From: Thermoanaerobaculia bacterium
GTDB taxonomy: Bacteria; Acidobacteriota; Thermoanaerobaculia; Gp7-AA8
Length of the DNA: 35,700 nt
NCBI GenBank assembly: GCA_017883205.1
Contig: JADGNZ010000059.1
Coordinates: forward strand, 1-35,700
Reading direction: 5' to 3'
Part shown: in pieces, positions 3,251 through 19,770 of the stretch
Layout of the letters: every line of letters begins with the position of its first letter
Position numbering within the stretch: position 1 is the stretch's first letter
The notes under the pieces: generated by a model
The model's input: the letters and a program-made list of their open reading frames with translations, nothing else
Told to the model about the DNA's origin: nothing
The model's database searches: none
Program-made: the position numbers and the translations under genes

Positions 3251-4345
3251 TCACACATTGAATCGAAACAGAATCACGTCTCCGTCCTGGACAACGTAAT
3301 CCTTTCCCTCGCTGCGCATCTTCCCGGCTGCTTTCGCGCCGGGCTCGCCGCCGAGGGATACGTAATCGTTGTAAGCGATGGTTTCGGCGCGAATGAAGCC
3401 GCGCTCGAAGTCGCTGTGAATCTTGCCGGCCGCCTGCGGCGCTTTCGAGCCGTTGTTGATCGTCCAGGCACGCGCTTCTTTCGGACCGGCGGTGAAGAAC
3501 GTCTCGAGATCGAGGAGCTTGTATGCGGCCCGAATGAGCGCGCTCAGGCCTGACTCCTGGAGGCCCATCTCGTTGAGAAAGTCGGCGCGCTCGGCGGGCG
3601 GCAATTGGGAGATCTGCGCTTCGAGCTCGCCGCAGATGACGACGATCTCGCCCTTCTTCTGCGCGGCCACGCTGCGTACCTTTTGCAGCATCGGGGTCTC
3701 TTTGCCGAGGTCGGACTCGGTGACGTTGGCGACGTAGAGAACCGGCTTGAGCGTGATCAGGTTCAGCTCGCGCAACGACTCGGCAGCCTCCTCGGTGAAG
3801 TCGACGGCGCGCAACGGCGTCCCGGCATCGATTGCCGTCTTCGCCTTCTCCAACGCTTCGGCCTGCGCGATGTACTCCTTCTGCCCTACGCGCGCGAGCC
3901 GCGCGACGCGGTCGAGTTTCTTGCTGACGGCGTCGAGATCGGCGAGCAACAGCTCCGTCTCGATCACCTCGATGTCGCGCTCGGGATCGACGGACCCTTC
4001 GACGTGCACGACGTTCGGATCATCGAAGCAGCGGACGACGTGAAGGATGGCGTCGGTCTCGCGGATGTTGGCGAGGAACTGATTGCCGAGCCCCTCCCCT
4101 TTCGACGCACCGCGCACAAGGCCGGCGATGTCGACGACGCGGAGGTCGGTGTAGACGGTCTGCTTGCTCTGCGCAAGCTCGGCAAGCTTGTCGAGCCGCG
4201 GATCGACGACGGGCACGATGCCGACGTTCGGCTCGATCGTGCAGAAGGGATAGTTTGCGCTCTGTGCTCCAGCGGCGGTGAGCGCATTGAAGATCGTCGA
4301 CTTGCCGACATTCGGCAGCCCGACGATTCCGACTGAAAGACCCAT
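3251..4345 (-). CDS. ychF: Ribosome-associated ATPase YchF
   Basis: 364 residues, the usual length of YchF/Ola1, an Obg-family P-loop protein that prefers ATP to GTP and binds ribosomes. The G1 motif GLPNVGKST lies at 9-17, the G3/switch region DIAGLVRGASKGEGLGNQF near 73-91, and the degenerate G4 motif NVTESD (NxxE rather than NKxD), diagnostic of the ATP-preferring subfamily, near 208. A TGS-like C-terminal domain includes AYNDYVSLGG and ends VILFRFNV. A GAGGAG Shine-Dalgarno lies about 10 nt before the ATG, unlike many genes in this window. It is the first gene of a two-gene operon with the hydrolase. The gap upstream, to 4668, is filled by two repeat copies. Confidence 0.97.
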   Translation of the reverse strand: MGLSVGIVGLPNVGKSTIFNALTAAGAQSANYPFCTIEPNVGIVPVVDPRLDKLAELAQSKQTVYTDLRVVDIAGLVRGASKGEGLGNQFLANIRETDAILHVVRCFDDPNVVHVEGSVDPERDIEVIETELLLADLDAVSKKLDRVARLARVGQKEYIAQAEALEKAKTAIDAGTPLRAVDFTEEAAESLRELNLITLKPVLYVANVTESDLGKETPMLQKVRSVAAQKKGEIVVICGELEAQISQLPPAERADFLNEMGLQESGLSALIRAAYKLLDLETFFTAGPKEARAWTINNGSKAPQAAGKIHSDFERGFIRAETIAYNDYVSLGGEPGAKAAGKMRSEGKDYVVQDGDVILFRFNV

Positions 4346-6800: not shown

Positions 6801-6824
6801 GATTCGATCCTTTCAGCAAATGGA

Positions 6825-6915
6825 ATGGGGTCAGGTCTAAAGTCAAAGTGCCGAAGGATGAATATCGCCCGATGCAGAATCGTCTGCCGGCACTTTAGAC
6901 TTTAGACCTGACCCA
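6825..6915. repeat. GGGGTCAGGTCT REP-like palindrome, copy 1
   Basis: Arms of about 28 bp (6825-6853 and 6888-6915) are reverse complements with one or two differences and a central spacer. The right end abuts the stop codon of the methyltransferase gene. It belongs to the same subfamily as the copy at 7790-7885. Confidence 0.9.
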
Positions 6916-8169
6916 TCAATGTACTTCTAGCAGGAACCCTTTCAAATACTCCCCTTCCGGACAGAAGAGCGACACCGGATGATCGGGCGCTGCGGTCAGC
7001 CGGCGAACGAATGAAATGCGCCGGCCGGCGTCCTGCGCGGCGGAGAAGATCACTTTCTGGAAGAGGTCGAGCGACATGTGGCCGCTGCACGAGAACGTCA
7101 GCATCTGCGCGCCCGGGTCGAGGAGCTTCATGGCGAAGAGGTTGATGTCTTTGTAGCCGCGGGCGGCGCGGTCGATGTCGCCGCGCGATTTGGCGAAGGC
7201 GGGGGGATCGCAGATCAGCAGGTCGTAGCGCGCCGTGGTCTTGCGCACGTAATCGAACGCATCGGCGACCGTGAACGTGGCCTCGGAGCCATTCAGCGCA
7301 TGATTCGTCCGCGCCAGCTCGATCGCGCTCGAGGAGCTATCGACGTTCTCGACGGACGCTGCGCCGCCCGCTGCCGCGTAGACGCCGAACGCACCGCTGT
7401 ACGAAAAGAGATTCAGCACGCGGCGGCCGGCAGCGAGCGAGCGCGTCAAGGCGCGGTTCTCACGCTGATCGAGAAAGAATCCCGTCTTCTGCCCCGACGG
7501 CGCATCGACGTGGAAGTGGAGTCCGTTCTCGCGGATCTCGGCGGCCGGCTCCCCTTCTCCGATCCACTCCGGATCCATCGGCAGAGTCTCGATCTTCCGC
7601 GCCGGAATGTCGTTCTTGAGCCAGATGCCGCGCGGCGCGATCGCCTGTTGCACACAATCAATGATGAGAGGCCGGAGCTGCTCGACGCCGGCGTTGGCGA
7701 TCTCGATGACGGCAATGTCATTGTAACGATCGACGATCAATCCACTCAGCTCGTCCCCCTCGGCGTTGATGAGGCGGTACGCGTTATCGAATGGGGTCAG
7801 GTCTGAAGTTGAAAGTGCCGAGGATTGTCGGTCGCCCAGGCGAGTGTCGTTTTTCGGCACTTTCAACTTTAGACCTGACCCCATTCGCCGCGCGACGGCC
7901 GCGTTGATCCGCTCACGAATCGTCGCCTCGGTCAGCTCCTCATCGCCGAACGTCAGCGCGCGAACGCGGATCTGCGAATGCTGCGAATGGAATCCCGAGG
8001 CGATGCGGCGGCCCTGGGGATCGAGGAGATCGGCGAGGGCGGCGTTAGCGGGCCCGCTCTCGCGCGCGATCGCACCTGCGAAGATCCAGGGATGGCGGTT
8101 GGCGACGAGGCGCTCTTTGCCGGGCTTGAGCGTGAGGATGCGGCGATTGGCAGGTTCGAAATGATTCAT
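6916..8169 (-). CDS. rlmI: RlmI-type 23S rRNA m5C methyltransferase with an in-frame repeat insertion
   Basis: 417 residues; RlmI-family enzymes are usually about 385-400. The family transfers methyl from S-adenosylmethionine to a cytosine of 23S rRNA. An N-terminal PUA-like domain starts RRILTLKPGKERL. The Rossmann domain has NLFSYSGAFGVYAAAGG as the SAM loop, ICDPPAFAKSRGD as the NPPY-like motif, and TFSCSGHMS with the catalytic Cys. Residues about 96-127 do not belong to the family: they are encoded by a complete REP-like palindrome (7790-7885) between the INAAVARR and DNAYRLINAEGDELSG segments. The insertion preserves the frame. ATG 8169 is preferred over an upstream ATG at 8220 that lies within another repeat. 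TACGAT ends 9 nt before this ATG and no Shine-Dalgarno is present. Assignment to RlmI rather than a close COG1092 relative is likely, not certain. Confidence 0.9.
   Translation of the reverse strand: MNHFEPANRRILTLKPGKERLVANRHPWIFAGAIARESGPANAALADLLDPQGRRIASGFHSQHSQIRVRALTFGDEELTEATIRERINAAVARRMGSGLKLKVPKNDTRLGDRQSSALSTSDLTPFDNAYRLINAEGDELSGLIVDRYNDIAVIEIANAGVEQLRPLIIDCVQQAIAPRGIWLKNDIPARKIETLPMDPEWIGEGEPAAEIRENGLHFHVDAPSGQKTGFFLDQRENRALTRSLAAGRRVLNLFSYSGAFGVYAAAGGAASVENVDSSSSAIELARTNHALNGSEATFTVADAFDYVRKTTARYDLLICDPPAFAKSRGDIDRAARGYKDINLFAMKLLDPGAQMLTFSCSGHMSLDLFQKVIFSAAQDAGRRISFVRRLTAAPDHPVSLFCPEGEYLKGFLLEVH
7790..7885. repeat. GGGGTCAGGTCT REP-like palindrome, copy 2, inside rlmI
   Basis: A 96-bp element with 15-bp perfect terminal arms (7790-7804 and 7871-7885) and further near-perfect pairing inward. 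It is 32 codons long, has no stop in the rlmI frame, and matches the intergenic copy at 6825-6915 at both ends. Confidence 0.95.
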
Positions 8170-8178
8170 ACGCCGCGC

Positions 8179-8184
8179 ATCGTA
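8179..8184 (-). promoter_or_regulatory. Putative -10 box for rlmI (TACGAT)
   Basis: TACGAT on the minus strand, 9 nt before the ATG at 8169. No Shine-Dalgarno lies between, so the transcript may be leaderless or nearly so. Confidence 0.4.
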
Positions 8185-8186
8185 CC

Positions 8187-8285
8187 GGAAGGGGTCAGAC
8201 CGAAAGTGAAAGTGAAGCACCAGGAATGGTGAATGATTGTCACCCTTTCCGATAGGTCACTTTCACTTTGGGTCTGACCCCTTCC
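8187..8285. repeat. GGAAGGGGTCAGACC REP-like palindrome, copy 3
   Basis: Arms of about 29 bp at 8187-8215 and 8257-8285 are reverse complements with one or two differences. It lies between the divergent rlmI and membrane-protein genes, and continues into a further right-arm copy at 8298-8326. Confidence 0.9.
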
Positions 8286-8297
8286 ACTACTGGTGCG

Positions 8298-8326
8298 TCA
8301 CTTTCACTTTCGGTCTGACCCCTTCC
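8298..8326. repeat. Solitary arm of the GGGGTCAGACC repeat
   Basis: Nearly identical to the right arm at 8257-8285. It has no left partner of its own but could pair with 8187-8215 as an alternative. It ends two bases before the -10 box of the next gene. Confidence 0.85.
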
Positions 8327-8328
8327 GC

Positions 8329-9009: not shown

Positions 9010-9021
9010 CCGCTTATTAGG

Positions 9022-9050
9022 TCACTTTCACTTTCGGTCTGACCCCTTCC
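9022..9050. repeat. Solitary arm of the GGGGTCAGACC repeat
   Basis: The 29 bases match the arm at 8298-8326. It starts 12 nt after the stop codon of the upstream gene. Confidence 0.85.
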
Positions 9051-9096
9051 GTGAGAAATGCGTCAAAAAGGCGGGAGGGGGCGGTAATAAGTCGGA

Positions 9097-9516
9097 ATGA
9101 TTTGTTCCGATGCCGCAATCCGCGGTTCCGATGCCGCAATGATCGGTTTCGATGTCGGAAGCAACGGTTTCGATGCCGCAATGATTGGTTTCGACATCGG
9201 AAGCAACGGTTTCGATGTCGCAATGATTGGTTTCGATATCGAAAGCAACGGTTTCGATGCCGCAATGATTGGTTTCGATATCGGAAGCAACGGTTTCGAT
9301 GTCGCAATGATTGGTTTCGATATCGAAAGCAACGGTTTCGATGTCGCAATGATTGGTTTCGACATCGGAATCAATGGTTTCGATATCGCAATGATTGGTT
9401 TCGACATCGAAAGCAACGGTTCCGATGCCGCAATCCGCGGTTCCGATATCGCAACCATCGGCTTGCAATTCTCACCACTTTCCGCCACGCGCTGCCACCA
9501 GGCCCTGCAAACGTGA
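9097..9516 (+). CDS. Possible heptapeptide-repeat protein (doubtful)
   Basis: A 139-residue reading frame covers the 21-bp array. It would encode alternating heptads of the form GFDxAMI and GFDxGSN, followed by a short unrelated tail. In this frame the Asp is invariant, because the only changes in its codon are GAT/GAC. The next position varies only among Ala, Val and Ile. Those points favour coding, as does a TAATAA hexamer 6 nt before the ATG. Against it, the unit is a multiple of three without stops, so other frames are open too, and no known domain or signal peptide is visible. It may be only a minisatellite. Confidence 0.25.
   Translation: MICSDAAIRGSDAAMIGFDVGSNGFDAAMIGFDIGSNGFDVAMIGFDIESNGFDAAMIGFDIGSNGFDVAMIGFDIESNGFDVAMIGFDIGINGFDIAMIGFDIESNGSDAAIRGSDIATIGLQFSPLSATRCHQALQT
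9103..9459. repeat. Tandem array of seventeen 21-bp units
   Basis: Seventeen contiguous 21-bp units run without gaps. The core is GGTTTCGATNTCGNAA; units ending in CAATGATT alternate with units ending in AAGCAAC, giving a 42-bp higher-order period through most of the array. Units 1 and 16, near the two ends, share the variant TTCCGATGCCGCAATCCGC. Several units contain the 14-bp perfect palindrome TTTCGATATCGAAA. Unlike CRISPR, there are no unique spacers. Confidence 0.95.
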
Positions 9517-9694: not shown

Positions 9695-9754
9695 GGAGAG
9701 TCTGCCCGGACACTCTGTCACTCTCCTGACCGAATGGTGCGATGCCAGGAGAGT
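9695..9754 (+). promoter_or_regulatory. Leader with alternative hairpins covering the Shine-Dalgarno of the giant gene
   Basis: Three segments: GGAGAGT (9695-9701), ACTCTCCT (9720-9727) and AGGAGAGT (9747-9754). The middle segment is fully complementary to the third, which contains the Shine-Dalgarno, and 7-bp complementary to the first. The two pairings exclude each other and have loops of about 18-19 nt. It matches no riboswitch class I can name. Confidence 0.45.
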
Positions 9755-9756
9755 TT

Positions 9757-12700
9757 ATGAACACGAATCGTAACGTTTCGAACGCGGTCGTTCGCTCAAC
9801 CGTCGTCCGCAGTGCCGTTTTCGCCTTCACGTTTCTCTGCCTGACGCTCGTCGCCACGAGCGTGTCGGCTCAGACGACGTACACCTGGAACCAGACCGGC
9901 ACGGCGTCCTGGGCGACCAGTACGAACTGGACGCCGACACGCACGACGCCAGCGACGAACGACGTGCTCGTGTTCAACAACGGCGCGACGACAACGGTCA
10001 CAGCCGTGCCAATCCAGACGATTGGAAAGCTGTCCGTCTCGAGCAACACGGCGGTCACACTGCAACCGGCGGCCAGCACTCTCGCAGTTCTGACCATCGG
10101 TGGCGGCGCAGGTGCCTTGTCGGTGGCGGCGGGATCCCAGCTCAATATCAGCGGCGGACAAACGACCGCTCCCGCCAGCAACTTGTCGATCAGCGTCGCC
10201 ACGTTGAGCACCGGAACGATCACCGGCTCGATGACGCTGTCGTCGGCTGCAGCCCACAGGTTACTGGCGGCAGACGCAAGTGGCATCACGTTCCAGAGCG
10301 GGTCGATATTCACGGCTGGCACCTCGCTCTCAGGCAATCCGTTCGGCACGACGAACCTTAATTCGATTGTCTTCGCAAGCGGATCAACGTTTATCGCCAT
10401 CGCTGGATCGAATCCATTTGGCGCCGCTGCGCCATCTTCCGTCGTCGTGTTTCAGACGGGCAGTCTCTACAAGAACCAAGTTGCCGCTCCCTCGTTCAGC
10501 GGCAGGACGTTCGCCAATTTCGAGCAGGTGTCCGGCACCGCTACCGTTACCGGAGGTAGCGCAGTAGCAATCGACAACCTCACCATTACCGGCGGCACGC
10601 TGAACTTCAACCTGACCGGGCCGACATCCGGCACGCACACGATCAACGGCAACATCGCGGTCAATGGCGGAACGCTGAGCTTCACCCCTGCCACCGCCGC
10701 AACCATCAATCTCAAAGGAAATCTCTCCGTTGCCTCCGGAGCAACGCTCGGCTTCAACCCAACCGTCACGGGCAATCTCAACTTCAGCGGTACCTCCGCT
10801 CAGACCATCTCCAATGCGGGCACGATCAACGCGCTGACGGCGCTCCAGACTCTTACCGTTGCCAACACGAACGGCGTCACGCTGAGCAGCGGCACGCTTC
10901 CGCTCGGCGCTGGCAGCATCACCACCGGAGCGAACACCTTCGCAGTCGCCTCGGCAGCCACTCTCACCCGCACCACCGGCTACGTCATCGGCAATCTGAA
11001 GAAGACGTTTGCGGCTGCGGGAAGCAAGACCTTCGAAGTGGGAACCGCGAACGGCTATTCACCGATCACGGCCAACGCCACCGCGGGAACTTTCCCTGCG
11101 GATCTGACAATCAGCGCTACGCAGGCCGCACAGCCAAGCATGCCGGCAGGCAAGTCCATCCTGCGGTACTGGACCCTGACGGCCACGGCGCTCACGGCGG
11201 ACCTGACGTTTCAGTATCTGGCCGGAGACGTCCAGGGAATCGAAGCCAACTACACCATCTATCGCGTGAGCGGCGGAGTACCAACACCCTTCCCGGCAAG
11301 TGTCATCACTCCAGCAAGCCATTCCGCCACACTGGTCGGCGTCAGCAGCTTCTCCGATTGGACCGTCGGCGAAGCCCCTGACACCACCCCACCCTCCGTC
11401 ATCTCCGTCGCCGTTCCCGCCGACGGAACCTACGGCACTGGCCAGAACCTCAACTTCACCATCAACTTCAGTGAGAACGTCATCGTTGCCGGAGGTCCGG
11501 TACGTATCCCGATCACGCTCAACACTGGCGGTACGGTCTTCGCCAACTACGTCTCCGGCACCGGCACTTCGGCGCTTCTCTTCCGCTATGTCGTCGCGGC
11601 GGGCAACGCCGACCCCGATGGAATCTCGGTCGCGGGTGCGTTCGACCCCAACGGCGGTTCGGTAAAAGACGGCGCCGGAAACGATGCCGTCACGACGCTC
11701 AACAGCGTCGGCAGCACGACAAACATCCTCGTCGATGCCATCGCTCCCACATCCACGTCATCCACCGTCCCTGCTGACGGCGTCTACGGCATCGGCGGGA
11801 ATCTCGACTTCACGGTCACCTTCAACAAGAGCGTCACGGTCACCGGCAATCCGTACGCCGGCGTCACGTTGAACACCGGTGGCGCGGTGCAGGCGGGCTA
11901 CCTGACCGGCAGCGGCACGGGCACGCTCACCTTCCGCTACGTCGTCGCCTCAGGCAACGCCGATCCGGACGGGATCACTGTCGATTCGTCGATCACACTC
12001 AACGGCGGGACGATCAAGGACGGATTCGGCAACGACGCCGCTCTCGCGGTGAGCTTCGCTTCGACCGCGGGTGTCCTCGTCGACGGTATCGCCCCGAGCG
12101 TTTCGGGATCGACCGTCCCGGCGAACGGAACGCACATCGCCGGACAGACCCTCGACTACAGCATCACGTTCAGTGAGCCGGTCTTCGTGACCGGCACTCC
12201 CTCGGTGGCGGTGACGCTCAATACCGGCGGCACGGTGCAGGCAAACCTTGTCTCCGGCTCCGGCACGGCCACGCTGGCATTCCAATACACCATCGCCTCC
12301 GGCAACGCCGACAACGACGGCGTGACCACCGCCGGTTCGATCTCACTCAACGGCGGCTCGATCAAAGACGGCGCGGGCAACAACGCCGCCACCGCCGTCA
12401 CGTTTGCATCCACCACCGGCGTTCTCGTCGACGGCATCGCGCCGACTGTCACCTCGAGCGTTCGCGCCGACGCCGATCCGACCAATGCTTCTACGCTGCA
12501 CTACACCGTTACGTTCTCCGAGAACGTCAGCGGAGTGACGACAGGCGCGTTTGCGCTGACTGCGGGCGGCGGAGCCTCGGGAAGCATCACCGCAGTCGTT
12601 CCGGTCAACGCCCACACCTACACCGTCACGGTCGGTTCTGCCGCCGGCGAGGGGACGCTTCGCCTCGACGTCAACGCCTCCGGCACCGGCATCACCGACC

Positions 12701-15700
12701 TCCCGGGCAATCCGCTGAACGGCGGATTCACGACGGGCCAGCTCTACACCCTCGATCACATCGGCCCGAATGTCACCTCGGTCGCCGTGCCGGCAAACAG
12801 CACCTACACGACCGGACAGAATCTCGACTTCACCGTCAACTTCAACGAGAACGCCACCGTAGCCAGCGGCACGCCGCGCATCGCGCTCACGCTCAACAGC
12901 GGAACCGTATACGCGAGCTACGTGTCGGGCTCTCCAGGCACGGCGCTGCTCTTCCGCTACACCGTCGTCTCCGGCGACTCCGACCCCGATGGCATCGTGG
13001 TGGCAGGCAGCATCGACCTCAATGGCGCCACGATCCGCGACGCGCTCGGCAACGACGGCAACAGCACGCTCAACTCCGTCGGCAGCACTACCGGCGTGCT
13101 CGTCGATGCCAATGCCCCGGCCGTCCTATCGGTGACGCGCGCGGGCACCAACCCGACGAACGCCGCCTCGGTCGACTTCACCGTGACATTCTCTCAAGGC
13201 GTCACCGGTGTCGATTCAGGCGACTTCACGCTGACCACGACCGGCGGAATCACACCGGGCGGCATCAGCGTCACTCCAGTCAACAGCTCGGTCTACACCG
13301 TCAGCGCCGGCACCGGTACCGGCGACGGCACGATCCGTCTCGATGTCGCCAACGACGGATCGATCCTCAGCGAATCCAACAACGCCCCGCTCGGCGCCAC
13401 ATTCACCACGGGCGAGGTCTACACGATCGACAAGACTGCACCTACGGTCCTGTCGATCACCCGCGTCGGCGCCGCCACCACGAACGCAACGAACGTGCAG
13501 TTCACGGTCACGTTCAGCGAACCGGTCCTGGGTGTCGACACCGGCGACTTCGCGTTGACGACGAGCGGCGTCTCCGGCGCTTCGATCAGTAACGCGCAGA
13601 GTTTCCTGACCGCCCTCCGGCCTCGCGTCTCGGCGATACGAGGCGGGCCTCACCCCACCACCCCGGTAATCACGGCAAGCGCGACGTGGACGATTACCGT
13701 GAATACCGGGTCTGGCGACGGCACCATCCGCCTCGACCTCATCGACGACGACTCGATCCATGATCCCGCCAGCAACCAGCTCGGCGGTGCAGGTTCGGGC
13801 AACGGCAACTTCACGGCGGGCGACACCGACACCATCGACAAGACCGCGCCCACGGTGCAGTCGATTACGCGCATCGGCGCCGCTTTGACGAACGCGACGA
13901 ACGTACAGTTCACGGTCACCTTCAGCGAGCCGGTGCTCAACGTCGACAGCGCCGACTTCACCGTCACGGCCACGGGCGGAGTCACCGGAGCGAGCGTCAC
14001 CGGCGTCACCGGCAGCGGGCCGTACACCGTCACCGTGAATACGGGCAGCGGCGACGGCACCATCCGGCTCGACGTCATTGCCGGATCGGCAACGATCAAC
14101 GACGCCGCCGGCAACGCACTGACCCCGAGCTTCACCACCGGCGACGCCGACACGATCGACAAGACGCTTCCGGCGGTGCAATCGATCGTCAAAGCCAGCA
14201 CCGATCCGACGACCGCGACTTCGGTCGACTTCACCGTTACCTTCACCGAAAGCGTCACCGGCGTCGACACCGCCGACTTCACCATTACCGCGCCCAGCCT
14301 CACCGGTACCTCGGTCTCGAACGTCACCGGCAGCGGAACGACGTACACCGTCACTGTGGCCACAGGCAACGGCAGCGGTTCGCTGCGACTCGACCTCACC
14401 GGCAACGGTACCGTCGTCGACGGAGCCGGCAACAGTGCCGCGAGCTACACAAGCGGCCCGAGCTACACGATTCAGGGTCTGCCGGCGGCGCCGGTGAACC
14501 TCGTGGCCACACCCGGCGACGCGCATATCGCGCTCACCTGGAACGCAGTCAGCGGCGCGGACACCTACACCGTGAAGCGCTCGCTCACGAGCGGAACCGG
14601 CTATTCGAACCTGATCACCGGCGTCGCCGTCGCCAACTACGACGACACGTCAGCGGTCAACGGCACGCCGTACTTCTACATGGTCAGCGCCACGAACGGC
14701 CGTGGCGAAGGTCCCGACTCGAGCGAAGCGACGGCCACACCCGCGGTACCAGCCGCAGGACCCGGACCGGTCAGCATCGCCGTCGGCGATGCGAAGGTCC
14801 TCCTGTCGTGGCCCGCGGTCGGCGGAGCGACGTCGTACAACGTCAAGCGCGGAACGACCACCGGCTCGTACACCGTCACCACAAACACCGTAGTGCCCAC
14901 GTTCACCGACTCGACCGTCACCAACGGCACCACGTATTACTACGTCGTTACCGCGCTCTCACCCGCAGAAAGCGCCAACTCCACTGAGGTGAGCGGCACG
15001 CCGAACACGCCCTCGGTGCTCGGCGTCGTGTTTAGCACGGTCTACGGCGGCGGCGGCAACGCAGGCGCCACGCTGAAGAACGACTTCATGGAGTTGTTCA
15101 ACCGCGGCACGCAAACCGTTTCCCTCAACGGCTGGTCCGTTCAATACACCTCGGCAGCCGGAACTGGTTGGGTGACGGCGAACTCGCCGACGAACTTGTC
15201 CGGAACGATCGCTCCGGGACACTACTACCTCGTGCAGGAGGGTCCAGGTGCCGGCGGAACGGTGAACCTCCCCACCCCTGATGCCACCGGACTGATCGCG
15301 ATGGGCGCGACTGCCGGCAAGGTAGCGCTGGTCGGAAACACCACCGTGTTGACCGGCTCGTGCCCGACAGGCACCTTCATCGCCGACTTCGTCGGTTACG
15401 GCCCAACGGCCACCTGCTCCGAGACCAGCCCGACGGTAGTGCTCACCAACACGACGGCCGCACTTCGCAAGAACAACGGCTGCACCGATACGAACAACAA
15501 CAACTCCGACTTCACGGCCGGCGCGCCGAATCCGCGCAACAGCGCCTCACCGGTCAACATCTGCGGCGTCGTCAACAACCCGCCGACGATCACTCCACCC
15601 GCAAGTCCGATCGCCTCGGTGGCGCAAGACGCCGCGCCGTTCACCGTCAATCTCAGCGGTACCGACGACGGCGGCGTCTATCAGTGGACAGCCACTCCGG

Positions 15701-18700
15701 GCACCGGCCTGCAGAGCGTGACTGTCACTTCTGGCCAGGGCACCGCAACCGTGACCTACACCGTCACACTGACGGCCGGGTTCAGCGGAACGGCGACCTT
15801 CACCGCATCGCTCAGCGACGGCATCAACGCAGCGGTCAACCAGGCAGTCAACATTCAGGTCACCGGGAGCGGTGGCAACAATCCGCCGCTGATCACACCG
15901 CCCGCGAATCCGATCACCACGGTGGCGCAGGATCCTGCTCCCTTCACGGTGAACGTGTCGGGAACCGATGACGGTGGCATCTACAACTGGAGCGCCACTC
16001 CGGGAACCGGCGTGGCCAGCGTGAACGTCACCGCCGGCCAGGGCACGGCCACCGTGACGTACACCGTTGCGTTGAATGCAGGCTTCAACGGAACGGCGAC
16101 GTTCACCGCCACGCTCTCCGACAACGTCAACCCGCCCGTCAACCAGGCCGTGAACATCAACGTCCTTCCTGCCGGCGCGACGCCGAATCACGTCGTCATC
16201 AGCCAGTTGTACGGTGGCGGCGGCAACTCCGGCGCTACCTATAAGAATGACTTCATCGAGCTCTTCAACCCCACCGCCTCACCGGTCACCATGGCCGGGT
16301 GGAGCGTGCAGTATTCATCGGCCACGAACACCGGCGCCTTCTCCGGCCTCCAGCCCATCGGCGGCACCATCGGGCCGGGCGAGTACTACCTGATCGCGCT
16401 GGCCTCGGGAGGCGCTGTGGGCGCCGATCTGCCCCCGGCCAATGTCTCCGGCAGCATCAACATGAGCGGAACAACCGGCAAGGTCGCTCTCGTCAGCACA
16501 GGCACGCCGGTGCCCGGTCCCTGCTCAGAAACGGCTCTCGACACCGACATCGTCGATCTGGTCGGCTACGGCACCGCAAACTGCAACGAAGGCGGCACGA
16601 ACGCGCCGGCGCCCAGCAACACGACGTCCGACTTCCGCAAGAACGGCGGCAACACCGACACCAACGTCAACGGCAACGATTTCCTCACCGGAGCTCCGAA
16701 TCCGAGGCGCACGGCCGTCATCGCTCCGATCACTCCTTCCGTCGTGAACACCGATCCGCCGTCGAACGGCGCGAATGCACCCCGCGACGACAGTGTCATC
16801 GTCACCTTCACCACCCATGTCGACGTCAGCGCCGGCTGGTACAACATCAACTGCAACTCCACAGGCCTGCATAACGACGCCACCGTCGTCGAGGGAGCGC
16901 CCAATAGCTGGGTGATCACGCCCAACACGAACTTCCAGGCGGCCGAACAGTGTGCCGTGACCGTCTTCAAGGACTTCCTCCACTCCACGGCGGACAACTC
17001 GACGCTATCGGCCGACTACACCTGGACGTTCACCGTCTCGACAGGAACTGCCCCTCCCTACCCGGCATCCGTTCATCTGACGATGGGCACTCCGTCCGTT
17101 TGCACGACGAGCTTGTCGTCTCCGAACAGCTACCTCATGCTGAAGCCCGAGAATTCGGTCTGCTACAACCGTGACCTCGGCCGTCCGAACTGGGTGAGCT
17201 GGCATCTCTCCGATGAGTGGGTCGGCTCGCTGACCCGTGTCGACAGCTTCCGGCCCGACCCGGACGTACCGGCCGCCTGGTATCGCGTGCTGGCCAGCGA
17301 CTTCTTCCTCACCGGCTTCGACCGCGGTCACATGACGCCGAATGCGGACCGCGACAAGGAGACATCGATCCCCATCAACCAGGCAACGTTCCTCATGGCG
17401 AACATGGTGGCCCAGGCACCGGACAACAATCAGGGACCGTGGGCGAACCTCGAGAACTATCTGCGGTCTCTTCTGCCTGCCGATGAGCTGTACATCGTGT
17501 CCGGCCCGGCAGGTATGGGCGGCACGGGCAGCAACGGCGGCGTCACCAACACCGTCGCCAACGGCCACGTTACCGTCCCGGCCAGCACCTGGAAGTGCGC
17601 GCTGGTTTTAGCAAAAGCATCCGGCGACGACCTCGCACGCGTCACCGCTTCGACGCGGACGATCTGCGTGATCATGCCCAATATCCAGGGCATCCGGAAT
17701 GACGACTGGCACATCTACCTCAAGAGTGTCGACCAGGTGGAAGCGCTCACCGGATTTGACCTCTTCTCCAACGTTCCACCCGCGATTCAGAACGCCATCG
17801 AGGCGGGAGTCGACGGCACGAACCCGCCAGGCGCCGCCGACCAATCGACGAGCACCAACGAGGACGTGCAGAAATCGATCACGCTGGACGCGGCGACGCC
17901 GGGCGGCGCGCTCACCTACACGATCCTTACCGGTCCCTTCCATGGCGGCCTGACCGGAACTGGAGCGAACCAGACCTACACACCCGCCCCCGATTTCAAC
18001 GGCACCGATACATTCACGTGGCGCGTCAACGACGGCACGAACAACTCCAACACGGCCACCATGACCATCACGGTGGCCGAGGTGAACGATCCACCGACCG
18101 CGGTGGATGACAGCAAGAGCACGACCGCGAATGTCGCGCTGACCTTCGCCAGCAGCGATCTGACGGCCAACGATTCAGCCGGACCCGCTAACGAAGCCGG
18201 CCAGACGCTCACCGTCACATCGGTAACGCCGACCGGCAGCACCCACGGTACGGCGACGCTTACCAGCGGCCAGATCACCTACACCCCGACTGCCGGCTAT
18301 AGCGGTCCGGCCAGCTTCACGTACACCGTCTGCGACAACGGCACGACCGCTGGATCGGCAGATTCGCTCTGCACGACCGCCACGGTCAACGTGACGGTCA
18401 ACCCGCCGCCACCCGCGACGCACCTGAGCGTCACTGCTCCGGCGAACGTCACCAACGGTGTTGCCTTCAACGTCACCGTCAGCGCACTCGATGGGTCCAA
18501 TGCCGCGGCCACCGGCTACACCGGCACCGTGCACTTCACCAGTTCCTCGTCCGGCACGCTGCCTTCCGATTACACGTTCACCGCCGGCGATCTTGGCGCG
18601 CACACATTCAGCGTCACGCTGACATCGAACGGATCGCGCACGATCACGGCGACGGACACGGTCACGGGGTCGATCACCGGCACCGCAAACACGACCGTGG

Positions 18701-19770
18701 CCGCGGTAGCCACGCACTTCAGCGTCACCGCTCCCGGCAGCTTTGCTCCCGGCACGCCGTTCAACGTGACCGTCACCGCGCTCGATGCTTCGAACGCGAC
18801 CGTGACCGGCTACGCAGGCAGCGTTCACTTCACCACCTCGGCAGGTTCTTCAACCCTTCCATCGGACTACACCTTCGTCGCCGGCGACAACGGCGCGCAT
18901 ACATTCAGCGTCACGCTCAACGCCAGCGGCTTGCAGACGATCACCGCGACCGATATCGGGACGCCATCGATCACCGGCAGCGCATCGACGTCTGGCACTT
19001 GCCCGCCGGTCGCCGCGCCGAGCGCGTCGAACAGCGGTCCCGCGTGCGCAGGCGGCACAGTCAACCTCTTCGCCTCCGGCGGCACGAGCTACTCGTGGAG
19101 CGGTCCGGGCGGCTTCACCTCGACGCAGCAGAATCCGACCGGCGTCACGCAGCCCGGTACGTACGTGGTCATCGTAACTTCGGCCGGTCCTTGCGGCGGC
19201 AGCACTCCGGTTCCGACCACCGTCGTCTTCAATCCGCTTCCTTCAGCCTCGATTACGACCGGTGGTACCAGCACCTGCGCGCTCTCGAGCGGCAACAACG
19301 CCAGCGTCCCCGACGCCGGTGCAGGCGCGAACTACAGCTGGTCGATCACGGGCGGCACGATCACCAGCGGTATCGGTACCCGCGCCGTCGTCTTCACGGC
19401 GGGAGCGAGCGGCAATGTTCATCTCATCGCGACGGTCTTCACGGCCAGCAATTGCAGCGCAACATCGTCGGCGGATATCGCCATCAGCAGCGCTCCGACG
19501 ATTGCCGTACAGCCGCTCGGTCAGATCGTGAATCCAGGAAGCAACGCGACATTCACGGTGACCGCCAACGGGTTGAACCTGCACTATCAATGGTTCGTCC
19601 ATCACGGCAACGGCACGACCAACGCGGTCGGAACCGACTCTTCGTCGTACACAACCAACCCGGAAGGAAACGCCACGTGGTTCGTGCGCGTGACGAATTC
19701 GTGCGGCACGGTTGACTCCGTCGCGGTCGACGCGCTGGTCGTCACACCGAAGCATCGTCCCTCCCACTAA
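9757..19770 (+). CDS. Giant secreted multidomain protein with lamin-tail domains and NUC1 nuclease
   Basis: About 3,337 residues. A Sec signal peptide (1-37) ends SVSA before QTTYTW. About 38-540: Ser/Thr/Gly-rich beta region like passenger or beta-helix segments. 545-1573: tandem Ig-like repeats of two types, marked by NFSENV or TFSEPV and DGxGND. 1574-1752: two FN3 domains. 1755-1933 and 2144-2323: two lamin-tail domains (VYGGGGNAG, ELFN, WSVQY, GAPNPR), separated by two Ig-like repeats. 2328-2432: SbsA-like Ig domain. 2436-2685: DNA/RNA non-specific endonuclease with DRGH (His2525) and NQGPWANLE (Asn2558, Glu2566), the spacing of the Serratia nuclease active site. 2692-3337: cadherin/VCBS-like, Ig and PKD-like domains. 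No sorting motif or beta-barrel is seen. ATG 9757 is chosen because AGGAG lies 5 nt upstream and the signal peptide follows at once. Likely an extracellular or surface nuclease. Confidence 0.93.
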   Translation: MNTNRNVSNAVVRSTVVRSAVFAFTFLCLTLVATSVSAQTTYTWNQTGTASWATSTNWTPTRTTPATNDVLVFNNGATTTVTAVPIQTIGKLSVSSNTAVTLQPAASTLAVLTIGGGAGALSVAAGSQLNISGGQTTAPASNLSISVATLSTGTITGSMTLSSAAAHRLLAADASGITFQSGSIFTAGTSLSGNPFGTTNLNSIVFASGSTFIAIAGSNPFGAAAPSSVVVFQTGSLYKNQVAAPSFSGRTFANFEQVSGTATVTGGSAVAIDNLTITGGTLNFNLTGPTSGTHTINGNIAVNGGTLSFTPATAATINLKGNLSVASGATLGFNPTVTGNLNFSGTSAQTISNAGTINALTALQTLTVANTNGVTLSSGTLPLGAGSITTGANTFAVASAATLTRTTGYVIGNLKKTFAAAGSKTFEVGTANGYSPITANATAGTFPADLTISATQAAQPSMPAGKSILRYWTLTATALTADLTFQYLAGDVQGIEANYTIYRVSGGVPTPFPASVITPASHSATLVGVSSFSDWTVGEAPDTTPPSVISVAVPADGTYGTGQNLNFTINFSENVIVAGGPVRIPITLNTGGTVFANYVSGTGTSALLFRYVVAAGNADPDGISVAGAFDPNGGSVKDGAGNDAVTTLNSVGSTTNILVDAIAPTSTSSTVPADGVYGIGGNLDFTVTFNKSVTVTGNPYAGVTLNTGGAVQAGYLTGSGTGTLTFRYVVASGNADPDGITVDSSITLNGGTIKDGFGNDAALAVSFASTAGVLVDGIAPSVSGSTVPANGTHIAGQTLDYSITFSEPVFVTGTPSVAVTLNTGGTVQANLVSGSGTATLAFQYTIASGNADNDGVTTAGSISLNGGSIKDGAGNNAATAVTFASTTGVLVDGIAPTVTSSVRADADPTNASTLHYTVTFSENVSGVTTGAFALTAGGGASGSITAVVPVNAHTYTVTVGSAAGEGTLRLDVNASGTGITDLPGNPLNGGFTTGQLYTLDHIGPNVTSVAVPANSTYTTGQNLDFTVNFNENATVASGTPRIALTLNSGTVYASYVSGSPGTALLFRYTVVSGDSDPDGIVVAGSIDLNGATIRDALGNDGNSTLNSVGSTTGVLVDANAPAVLSVTRAGTNPTNAASVDFTVTFSQGVTGVDSGDFTLTTTGGITPGGISVTPVNSSVYTVSAGTGTGDGTIRLDVANDGSILSESNNAPLGATFTTGEVYTIDKTAPTVLSITRVGAATTNATNVQFTVTFSEPVLGVDTGDFALTTSGVSGASISNAQSFLTALRPRVSAIRGGPHPTTPVITASATWTITVNTGSGDGTIRLDLIDDDSIHDPASNQLGGAGSGNGNFTAGDTDTIDKTAPTVQSITRIGAALTNATNVQFTVTFSEPVLNVDSADFTVTATGGVTGASVTGVTGSGPYTVTVNTGSGDGTIRLDVIAGSATINDAAGNALTPSFTTGDADTIDKTLPAVQSIVKASTDPTTATSVDFTVTFTESVTGVDTADFTITAPSLTGTSVSNVTGSGTTYTVTVATGNGSGSLRLDLTGNGTVVDGAGNSAASYTSGPSYTIQGLPAAPVNLVATPGDAHIALTWNAVSGADTYTVKRSLTSGTGYSNLITGVAVANYDDTSAVNGTPYFYMVSATNGRGEGPDSSEATATPAVPAAGPGPVSIAVGDAKVLLSWPAVGGATSYNVKRGTTTGSYTVTTNTVVPTFTDSTVTNGTTYYYVVTALSPAESANSTEVSGTPNTPSVLGVVFSTVYGGGGNAGATLKNDFMELFNRGTQTVSLNGWSVQYTSAAGTGWVTANSPTNLSGTIAPGHYYLVQEGPGAGGTVNLPTPDATGLIAMGATAGKVALVGNTTVLTGSCPTGTFIADFVGYGPTATCSETSPTVVLTNTTAALRKNNGCTDTNNNNSDFTAGAPNPRNSASPVNICGVVNNPPTITPPASPIASVAQDAAPFTVNLSGTDDGGVYQWTATPGTGLQSVTVTSGQGTATVTYTVTLTAGFSGTATFTASLSDGINAAVNQAVNIQVTGSGGNNPPLITPPANPITTVAQDPAPFTVNVSGTDDGGIYNWSATPGTGVASVNVTAGQGTATVTYTVALNAGFNGTATFTATLSDNVNPPVNQAVNINVLPAGATPNHVVISQLYGGGGNSGATYKNDFIELFNPTASPVTMAGWSVQYSSATNTGAFSGLQPIGGTIGPGEYYLIALASGGAVGADLPPANVSGSINMSGTTGKVALVSTGTPVPGPCSETALDTDIVDLVGYGTANCNEGGTNAPAPSNTTSDFRKNGGNTDTNVNGNDFLTGAPNPRRTAVIAPITPSVVNTDPPSNGANAPRDDSVIVTFTTHVDVSAGWYNINCNSTGLHNDATVVEGAPNSWVITPNTNFQAAEQCAVTVFKDFLHSTADNSTLSADYTWTFTVSTGTAPPYPASVHLTMGTPSVCTTSLSSPNSYLMLKPENSVCYNRDLGRPNWVSWHLSDEWVGSLTRVDSFRPDPDVPAAWYRVLASDFFLTGFDRGHMTPNADRDKETSIPINQATFLMANMVAQAPDNNQGPWANLENYLRSLLPADELYIVSGPAGMGGTGSNGGVTNTVANGHVTVPASTWKCALVLAKASGDDLARVTASTRTICVIMPNIQGIRNDDWHIYLKSVDQVEALTGFDLFSNVPPAIQNAIEAGVDGTNPPGAADQSTSTNEDVQKSITLDAATPGGALTYTILTGPFHGGLTGTGANQTYTPAPDFNGTDTFTWRVNDGTNNSNTATMTITVAEVNDPPTAVDDSKSTTANVALTFASSDLTANDSAGPANEAGQTLTVTSVTPTGSTHGTATLTSGQITYTPTAGYSGPASFTYTVCDNGTTAGSADSLCTTATVNVTVNPPPPATHLSVTAPANVTNGVAFNVTVSALDGSNAAATGYTGTVHFTSSSSGTLPSDYTFTAGDLGAHTFSVTLTSNGSRTITATDTVTGSITGTANTTVAAVATHFSVTAPGSFAPGTPFNVTVTALDASNATVTGYAGSVHFTTSAGSSTLPSDYTFVAGDNGAHTFSVTLNASGLQTITATDIGTPSITGSASTSGTCPPVAAPSASNSGPACAGGTVNLFASGGTSYSWSGPGGFTSTQQNPTGVTQPGTYVVIVTSAGPCGGSTPVPTTVVFNPLPSASITTGGTSTCALSSGNNASVPDAGAGANYSWSITGGTITSGIGTRAVVFTAGASGNVHLIATVFTASNCSATSSADIAISSAPTIAVQPLGQIVNPGSNATFTVTANGLNLHYQWFVHHGNGTTNAVGTDSSSYTTNPEGNATWFVRVTNSCGTVDSVAVDALVVTPKHRPSH
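13597..13686. repeat. Extra 90-bp segment inside one Ig repeat, with small palindrome
   Basis: Compared with the next Ig repeat, about 30 codons replace about 7 codons between ASISNA and WTITVNTG. The segment encodes Arg- and Pro-containing residues unlike the Thr/Gly/Ser-rich surroundings. It contains inverted arms GCCTCG (13620-13625) and CGAGGC (13639-13644). It is probably a small in-frame insertion; it may be distantly related to the hairpins at 34995-35037. Confidence 0.45.

Follow-up and report, generated by a model that had tools for sequence, protein, structure and literature searches.

REPINs are pairs of inverted REP sequences separated by a spacer, predicted to fold into a hairpin and accompanied by a partner REP-associated tyrosine transposase (RAYT); as described, they are extragenic (Bertels and Rainey 2011, PMC3116915). 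The TIR repeats of TIRtrons, in which inverted repeats flank a Y1 transposase (TIRYT), form inverted dimers and often share the motif GGGGWSAS (Di Nocera 2013, PMC3733652). Acidobacteria are among the hosts named in the literature, and the TIRYTs are, according to the authors, "probably" subclass 2.1 of Quentin 2018, part of which carries the printed signature Y[IV]HLNP (PMC6006769). Palindromes inside protein-coding genes have also been published, namely the Rickettsia palindromic elements, which lie in frame, measure about 150 bp, fall into ten families (PMC10969869, PMC3733652), and have CGTC ends and no dedicated transposase (PMC3733652); the intragenic GTAG and CGTC REPs, which add 20 to 30 residues to unrelated genes at positions thought to be linkers or loops (PMC3733652); and the in-frame REPs inside tnpAREP genes of subclass 2.4 (PMC6006769). 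In the text consulted, the intragenic repeats are GTAG and CGTC REPs, not TIR repeats (PMC3733652). Here, we describe an element with TIR-type arms that lies in frame within an RlmI-like 23S rRNA methyltransferase gene of a Thermoanaerobaculia bacterium (Acidobacteriota). The window analyzed is a 35,700-nucleotide stretch of this genome (contig JADGNZ010000059.1, positions 1 to 35,700); the genome, G000, was compared with two congeners, G001 and G002, and with other relatives.

The gene was delimited by open reading frame (ORF), domain, and fold matches and occupies positions 6919 to 8169 of the reverse strand (417 codons; stop codon at 6916-6918), within an ORF from 6916 to 8220 that has no stop across the palindrome and whose likely start is at 8169. 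The encoded protein contains PUA_3 at residues 12-74 and Methyltrans_SAM at residues 203-397, the methyltransferase domain scoring 98.4 bits (cut-off, 27). The score for the curated RlmI equivalog (PRK15128) was not reached (289.7 versus 712 bits), and "RlmI-like" is therefore the safe name; the original prediction, made from the sequence of the window, had placed the element between two conserved RlmI segments of an rRNA methyltransferase gene. Coding bias, calculated with a codon table trained on the fetched stretches themselves, is present on both sides of the palindrome in one frame. The whole palindrome spans positions 7788-7887. Its REPIN-like core, from GGGG to CCCC, is located at 7793-7882 (reverse strand; 90 nt, or 30 codons, in frame), and the 96 nt at 7790-7885 (reverse strand) encode residues 96-127 of the protein (MGSGLKLKVPKNDTRLGDRQSSALSTSDLTPF), consistent with the approximately 32 stop-free codons predicted. 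The predicted perfect ends were also found: over 15 bp, positions 7790-7804 and 7871-7885 are perfectly complementary in inverted orientation (17 bp with 7788-7789 and 7886-7887), followed by one G/A mismatch and another perfect stretch to give a stem of 33 pairs. These ends include a 5-bp locus-specific inverted flank, unstranded, with CGAAT at 7788-7792 and ATTCG at 7883-7887. In a repeat search of the window, 7788-7836 paired with 7839-7887 at 84% identity, and the element matched its own reverse complement with an E value of 5e-20. The predicted RNA fold has a free energy of −66.2 kcal/mol (z = −12, 200 shuffles), similar to that of the counterpart element in G002 (−68.1 kcal/mol, z = −11).

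Comparison with relatives bore out the claim that a mobile palindrome had been inserted in frame. The insert is missing from 14 of the 15 RlmI loci displayed, which carry a short variable linker instead (e.g., RRRTRSNDTNA in G001 and RRRFIFDDTTNA in G009), and none of the 15 has an unrelated 32-residue segment at this position, an observation that would have spoken against the insertion. The remaining locus, in G002, contains a version of 93 bp, shorter by three bases, which stays in frame in spite of indels in the loop. Between G000 and G002, the body of the gene has diverged by 0.109 nonsynonymous (dN) and 0.631 synonymous (dS) substitutions per site (dN/dS of about 0.17). With a net length divisible by three and no stop in the frame that it took, the element left the reading frame intact and gave the gene about 30 additional residues. 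In the AlphaFold model of the protein (mean pLDDT, the predicted local distance difference test, of 92.4; alignment of 66 of 108 listed rows, picked to limit size), only residues 98-121 fall below 50, between a helix at 81-96 and a strand at 130-135. The best Foldseek match of the model is 3c0k, annotated as a ribosomal RNA methyltransferase (yccW), with TM scores of 0.86/0.91 and an E value of 1e-45; we take this entry to be Escherichia coli RlmI. The model is thus compatible with the insert being a disordered loop, in keeping with the tolerant loop after the PUA domain that had been proposed.

The palindrome belongs to a family that is abundant in G000. In this 6.37-Mb genome, at least 90 pieces match the 96-mer and at least 55 match a second subfamily. 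Candidates were scored for 40 of 62 matches to the 96-mer and 40 of 42 matches to the second subfamily, and all element counts are lower bounds. The sample, comprising 44 fetched stretches around matches plus the window, contains at least 61 elements, of which 60 have usable flanks (one too close to a contig end was omitted), i.e., at least 60 near-complete copies. Their length from GGG to CCC is 84-92 nt in 59 of the 60 and 59 nt in one. Each is built from two inverted arms of the form GGGGTCAG(GTC or ACC)..AAAGT.. around a variable loop; the inverted arm pair, the variable spacer, the predicted hairpin, and the high copy number in one genome are the features of REPINs. The arm GGGGTCAG, shown by most of the copies listed, agrees with the GGGGWSAS motif of TIRYT repeats, and no constant GTAG or CGTC was found at the stem foot among these copies. 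Accordingly, the description of the element as REP-like holds for its REPIN-like inverted arms, and its type is TIR/TIRYT, not that of a GTAG-footed REP; it differs from published REPINs and from intragenic GTAG/CGTC REPs in arm sequence and from the latter also in host class. With one mismatch or fewer allowed, the arm pattern occurs 129 times in G000, 38 times in G002, 32 times in G005 (a relative from another genus), and not at all in G001, with zero to three matches in each of the other 56 of the 60 genomes (including G000) searched; 55 of the 59 relatives have zero or one match. Such a patchy distribution is as expected of a mobile element. In G005, 20 of the 32 arm matches show an arm variant of its own, GGGGTCACACCGAAAGT.

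Further members of the family lie close to the RlmI-like gene. An intergenic element downstream of it, at 6824-6914 (forward strand), matches the element in the gene at 78% identity over query positions 1-92, with arms strongly alike and loops less so. The intergenic match that had been predicted therefore exists, with weaker likeness in the loop, and it is partly true that the match is limited to the palindromic ends; this is not damaging, because loops vary among the copies listed. Upstream of the gene are an intergenic element of the GACCGAAAGTGAAAGTG subfamily (8191-8281, forward strand), an extra right arm of this subfamily (8284-8327, reverse strand), and a solitary arm, likewise of this subfamily (9018-9051, reverse strand).

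Candidate enzymes for mobilization are encoded in the same genome, in which 15 Y1_Tnp places were found. With 82.2, the C73 transposase exceeds the cut-off (80) of the NCBIfam model of REP-associated tyrosine transposases and is thus a partner RAYT. Its gene (L141 2768-3760) is surrounded by elements at 2399-2487, 2692-2750, and 3829-3915, and further Y1_Tnp genes are located amid elements at C41, so that inverted repeats flank Y1 transposases at both places, as in TIRtrons. The transposases contain NHYH together with YVVLNP or YIVLNP, one residue off the published Y[IV]HLNP signature (PMC6006769). Transposases of the C73 type presumably mobilize the elements. Beside the C73 gene, the elements at L141 2691-2751 and 3828-3915 are shortened or nested, one of them being 61 bp long and almost without a loop.

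The RlmI-like gene is not the only host. From coding bias and open frames on both sides, with the flanks of all but one further element scored in each of G000 and G002, and from a reading of the candidates, five of the 60 elements of G000 are in frame within genes: the RlmI-like gene, an MTS/TrmN-like methyltransferase gene (P0001, on C50), a 2OG-Fe(II) oxygenase gene (P0002, on C103), and two transposase genes on C41. Thus, the prediction that some elements have become protein coding is upheld as far as the reading frame is concerned, and the peptides would be produced if these frames are translated. The counterparts of P0001 and P0002 in both G001 and G002 can be aligned to either side of the element and have no insert; the two insertions therefore most simply postdate the split from these congeners, which argues for movement, as had been predicted. 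Neither is entirely clean in length. The P0001 insert faces a gap of 43 columns, which exceeds by 12 the stretch of 31 codons between GVRSK and DLTP, both included, and the host linker of P0002 seems by eye to be about two residues shorter. In the weaker model of P0001 (10 sequences, mean pLDDT of 74.0), residues 207-246, which hold the insert, are below 50, and so are residues 1-17 and 159-178. The elements at L168 3420-3506 and 11001-11087 are in frame in the C-terminal part of both C41 transposase genes, after the Y motif. Here, the element lies within a Y1 transposase gene as do the REPs inside tnpAREP, although the enzyme is apparently nearer to subclass 2.1 than to 2.4. The C41 cases came from reading ORFs and did not reach the cut-off of the automatic test (one of them gave 0.11 and 0.07), and the two genes seem to be paralogs derived from a single locus, which would leave at most four independent in-frame cases. 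Among 24 fetched stretches of G002, one of 16 elements is in frame, namely the one in the RlmI-like gene. A candidate at L146 passed the automatic test and was dropped because reading revealed a stop and two separate frames.

We estimate a probability of about 85% that a nonautonomous mobile palindrome, moved by transposases of the RAYT/TIRYT family, landed in frame in the linker of the RlmI-like gene. This estimate draws on the element family, the in-frame position, the relatives without the insert, the loop prediction, the further in-frame copies, and the RAYT gene amid elements. The element would be a miniature in which inverted REP/TIR-type arms enclose a variable loop; Y1 tyrosine transposases encoded in the same genome most likely moved it in the form of a single-stranded hairpin. 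The insertion point would be the length-variable linker leading from the helix after the PUA domain to the next strand, where the additional residues, about 30 in number, would probably form a disordered loop. The insert is presumably translated, and the enzyme carrying it is presumably still functional. Several observations weigh against this account. No helix-turn-helix tail was detected in the three transposases (Pfam, E value of 0.001; only Y1_Tnp was found), whereas TIRYTs of subclass 2.1 are given such a tail, and no REP-like repeats are reported near subclass 2.1 genes (PMC6006769). The C41a transposase scores 68.7, under the NCBIfam cut-off of 80 (C41b was outside that scan). The insert of the RlmI-like protein has just one homologous row in the alignment, so a low pLDDT is expected whatever its structure. 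The element-encoded stretch of the C41 transposases faces a segment of similar length in other aligned transposases, and insertion and replacement are not separable there. Finally, the very stable hairpin might hinder translation.

Whether the RlmI-like genes of G000 and G002 record one insertion or two depends on the position of G001. In trees of three genes, G001 and G002 group together (ultrafast bootstrap support of 96 for protein and 94 for nucleotide sequences; FastTree support of 0.994 and 0.991), with support of 78 both when RlmI is used by itself and when only the other two genes are used. If the two are sisters, either G001 lost the insert or there were two separate gains, and we consider these histories evenly balanced. 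Under the first, a single insertion ancestral to the genus preceded the split of the three genomes and was lost in G001, while selection or hairpin-mediated self-correction preserved the likeness of the arms and the loop decayed. The copies in G000 and G002 agree in left boundary, orientation, and frame, and of all element loci fetched from the two genomes, this is the only pair that aligns on both sides of the element. (L223/L171 was not counted as a shared locus: one gene is homologous, the alignment is one-sided, and the subfamilies differ.) Two paired changes, A-T to T-A and T-A to C-G, preserve the stem, although unpaired changes occur in the arms too. A clean loss is needed, however, because G001 has no arm match, and no footprint of a lost element was seen by eye at its RlmI site. 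The arms also have few synonymous changes for such an age, 2 in 16.7 sites compared to 122.7 in 287.5 sites of the gene body (Fisher p of 0.011); nonsynonymous changes in the arms (4 in 43.3 sites) are like those of the body (binomial p of 0.56).

Under the second history, a permissive linker, perhaps with a short palindromic target, received separate elements in G000 and G002. The loops are as unlike as those of unrelated copies, with an alignment score of −1.0 that is reached by 41% of 1,534 cross pairs; with other trimming, the score is −3.0, and both are within the background. At a dS of 0.63, a decayed loop would likewise be hard to align (assuming a K80 model, scores as low as this have a probability of 0.10), and the loops weigh in favor of two insertions only by a factor of about 2 to 3 (densities of 0.10 versus 0.22-0.29). 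When the 75 copies are ordered by the distance of their arms from the G000 copy, the G002 copy is 8th, with seven copies from G000 ahead of it; in the order from the G002 copy, whose nearest neighbors are mostly G000 copies, the G000 copy is 18th. These ranks favor two insertions. Within the respective copies, the arms mismatch at just 1 and 2 of 26 positions, and the locus-specific flanks differ (CGAAT/ATTCG versus GGCGTAT/ATACGCC). A precedent is provided by different REPs near the same recB site in two Xanthomonas species (PMC3733652). Against two insertions, a coincidence at a single site is a priori rare, and the G002 arms are as near to G000 copies as to G002 copies.

The flanks bear on how such a site might be chosen. 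Several copies lie within larger palindromes whose outer 5-9 bp are self-complementary yet copy specific (e.g., L144 2510-2598, L147 3184-3270, and L224 2523-2613). The mean flank-palindrome extension exceeded that of flanks shuffled within class in four of five element groups: 4.7 versus 2.3 in G000 class A (28 copies), 2.1 versus 1.0 in class B (13 copies; p of 0.0035), 3.7 versus 2.7 in class C (19 copies), and 3.6 versus 1.4 in G002 class A (12 copies). No excess was found for the four copies of G002 class B (1.25 versus 1.19). Palindromic flanks would result either from insertion at palindrome centers or from inverted duplication, and undetected sub-subfamilies with their own flanks could account for part of the excess. 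When GGGG...CCCC is removed by eye, the RlmI site of G000 reads CGA ATA TTC GAT (Arg-Ile-Phe-Asp) and that of G002 reads CGT ATA TAC GCC; each virtual site would thus form a short, perfect palindrome into whose center the element is set, and the Ile-Phe-Asp of the emptied G000 site is similar to the linkers of G009 and G016. In P0001 and P0002, the flank palindromes of the in-frame copies extend by just 1 and 2, which speaks against the need for a palindromic target. Another element directly follows the P0001 gene (L134 2448); when the downstream DNA of the congeners was checked for its empty site, no likeness was seen by eye. We therefore regard as speculative, and on balance doubtful, a general rule under which TIR-type elements target the dyad center of short palindromes, linker codons for Arg-Ile-Phe/Tyr (CGWATATWCG) serve as landing pads, one spot in an enzyme gene received an element separately in each of two species, and mobile hairpins are a recurrent source of new protein loops.

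Two further explanations were considered. It is very improbable that the RlmI-like gene is a decaying pseudogene left open by luck: an open frame through an element is not rare (a mean of 1.6 of six frames per copy among 60 copies), but the frame is full length, its dN/dS and its methyltransferase domain score are those given above, and G002 has kept the frame despite the loop indels. Still less probable is an assembly or binning artifact. Both assemblies are drafts, with about 105 and 250 contigs, but the conserved halves of a single gene enclose the element within one contig, and the assembly of another species (G002, identified as JADGNY010000068.1 at 100% over 4,248 bases) has an element at the same place.

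Other repeats were observed in and around these loci. A search with the elements masked revealed a second repeat of about 63-120 bp and 77-94% identity that is common to both genomes, occurring at positions 12-80 of the window, at L163, L162, L140, L137, L149, L147, and L145, and at L214 and L219 of G002. The window also contains a 21/42-bp tandem repeat with inverted symmetry and several open frames (9051-9512) and an ORF of 3,342 residues with long repetitive sequence (9742-19770).

In-frame palindromes are a known phenomenon, and what is new here is that in Acidobacteriota they are TIR-type repeats that would serve as coding inserts; GGGGWSAS repeats were not found described in this role in the literature on REPINs, RAYTs, REPs, TIRYTs, and acidobacterial REPs, of which supplements and most subscription journals were beyond reach. 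The results suggest that the GGGGWSAS type of transposase-linked repeat, too, has been recruited as coding sequence. Three host genes with and without the insert in congeneric genomes make the rules of insertion and the cost of a 66-kcal/mol mRNA hairpin testable. If the same site in the RlmI-like gene was hit twice, this would point to target selection over chance.
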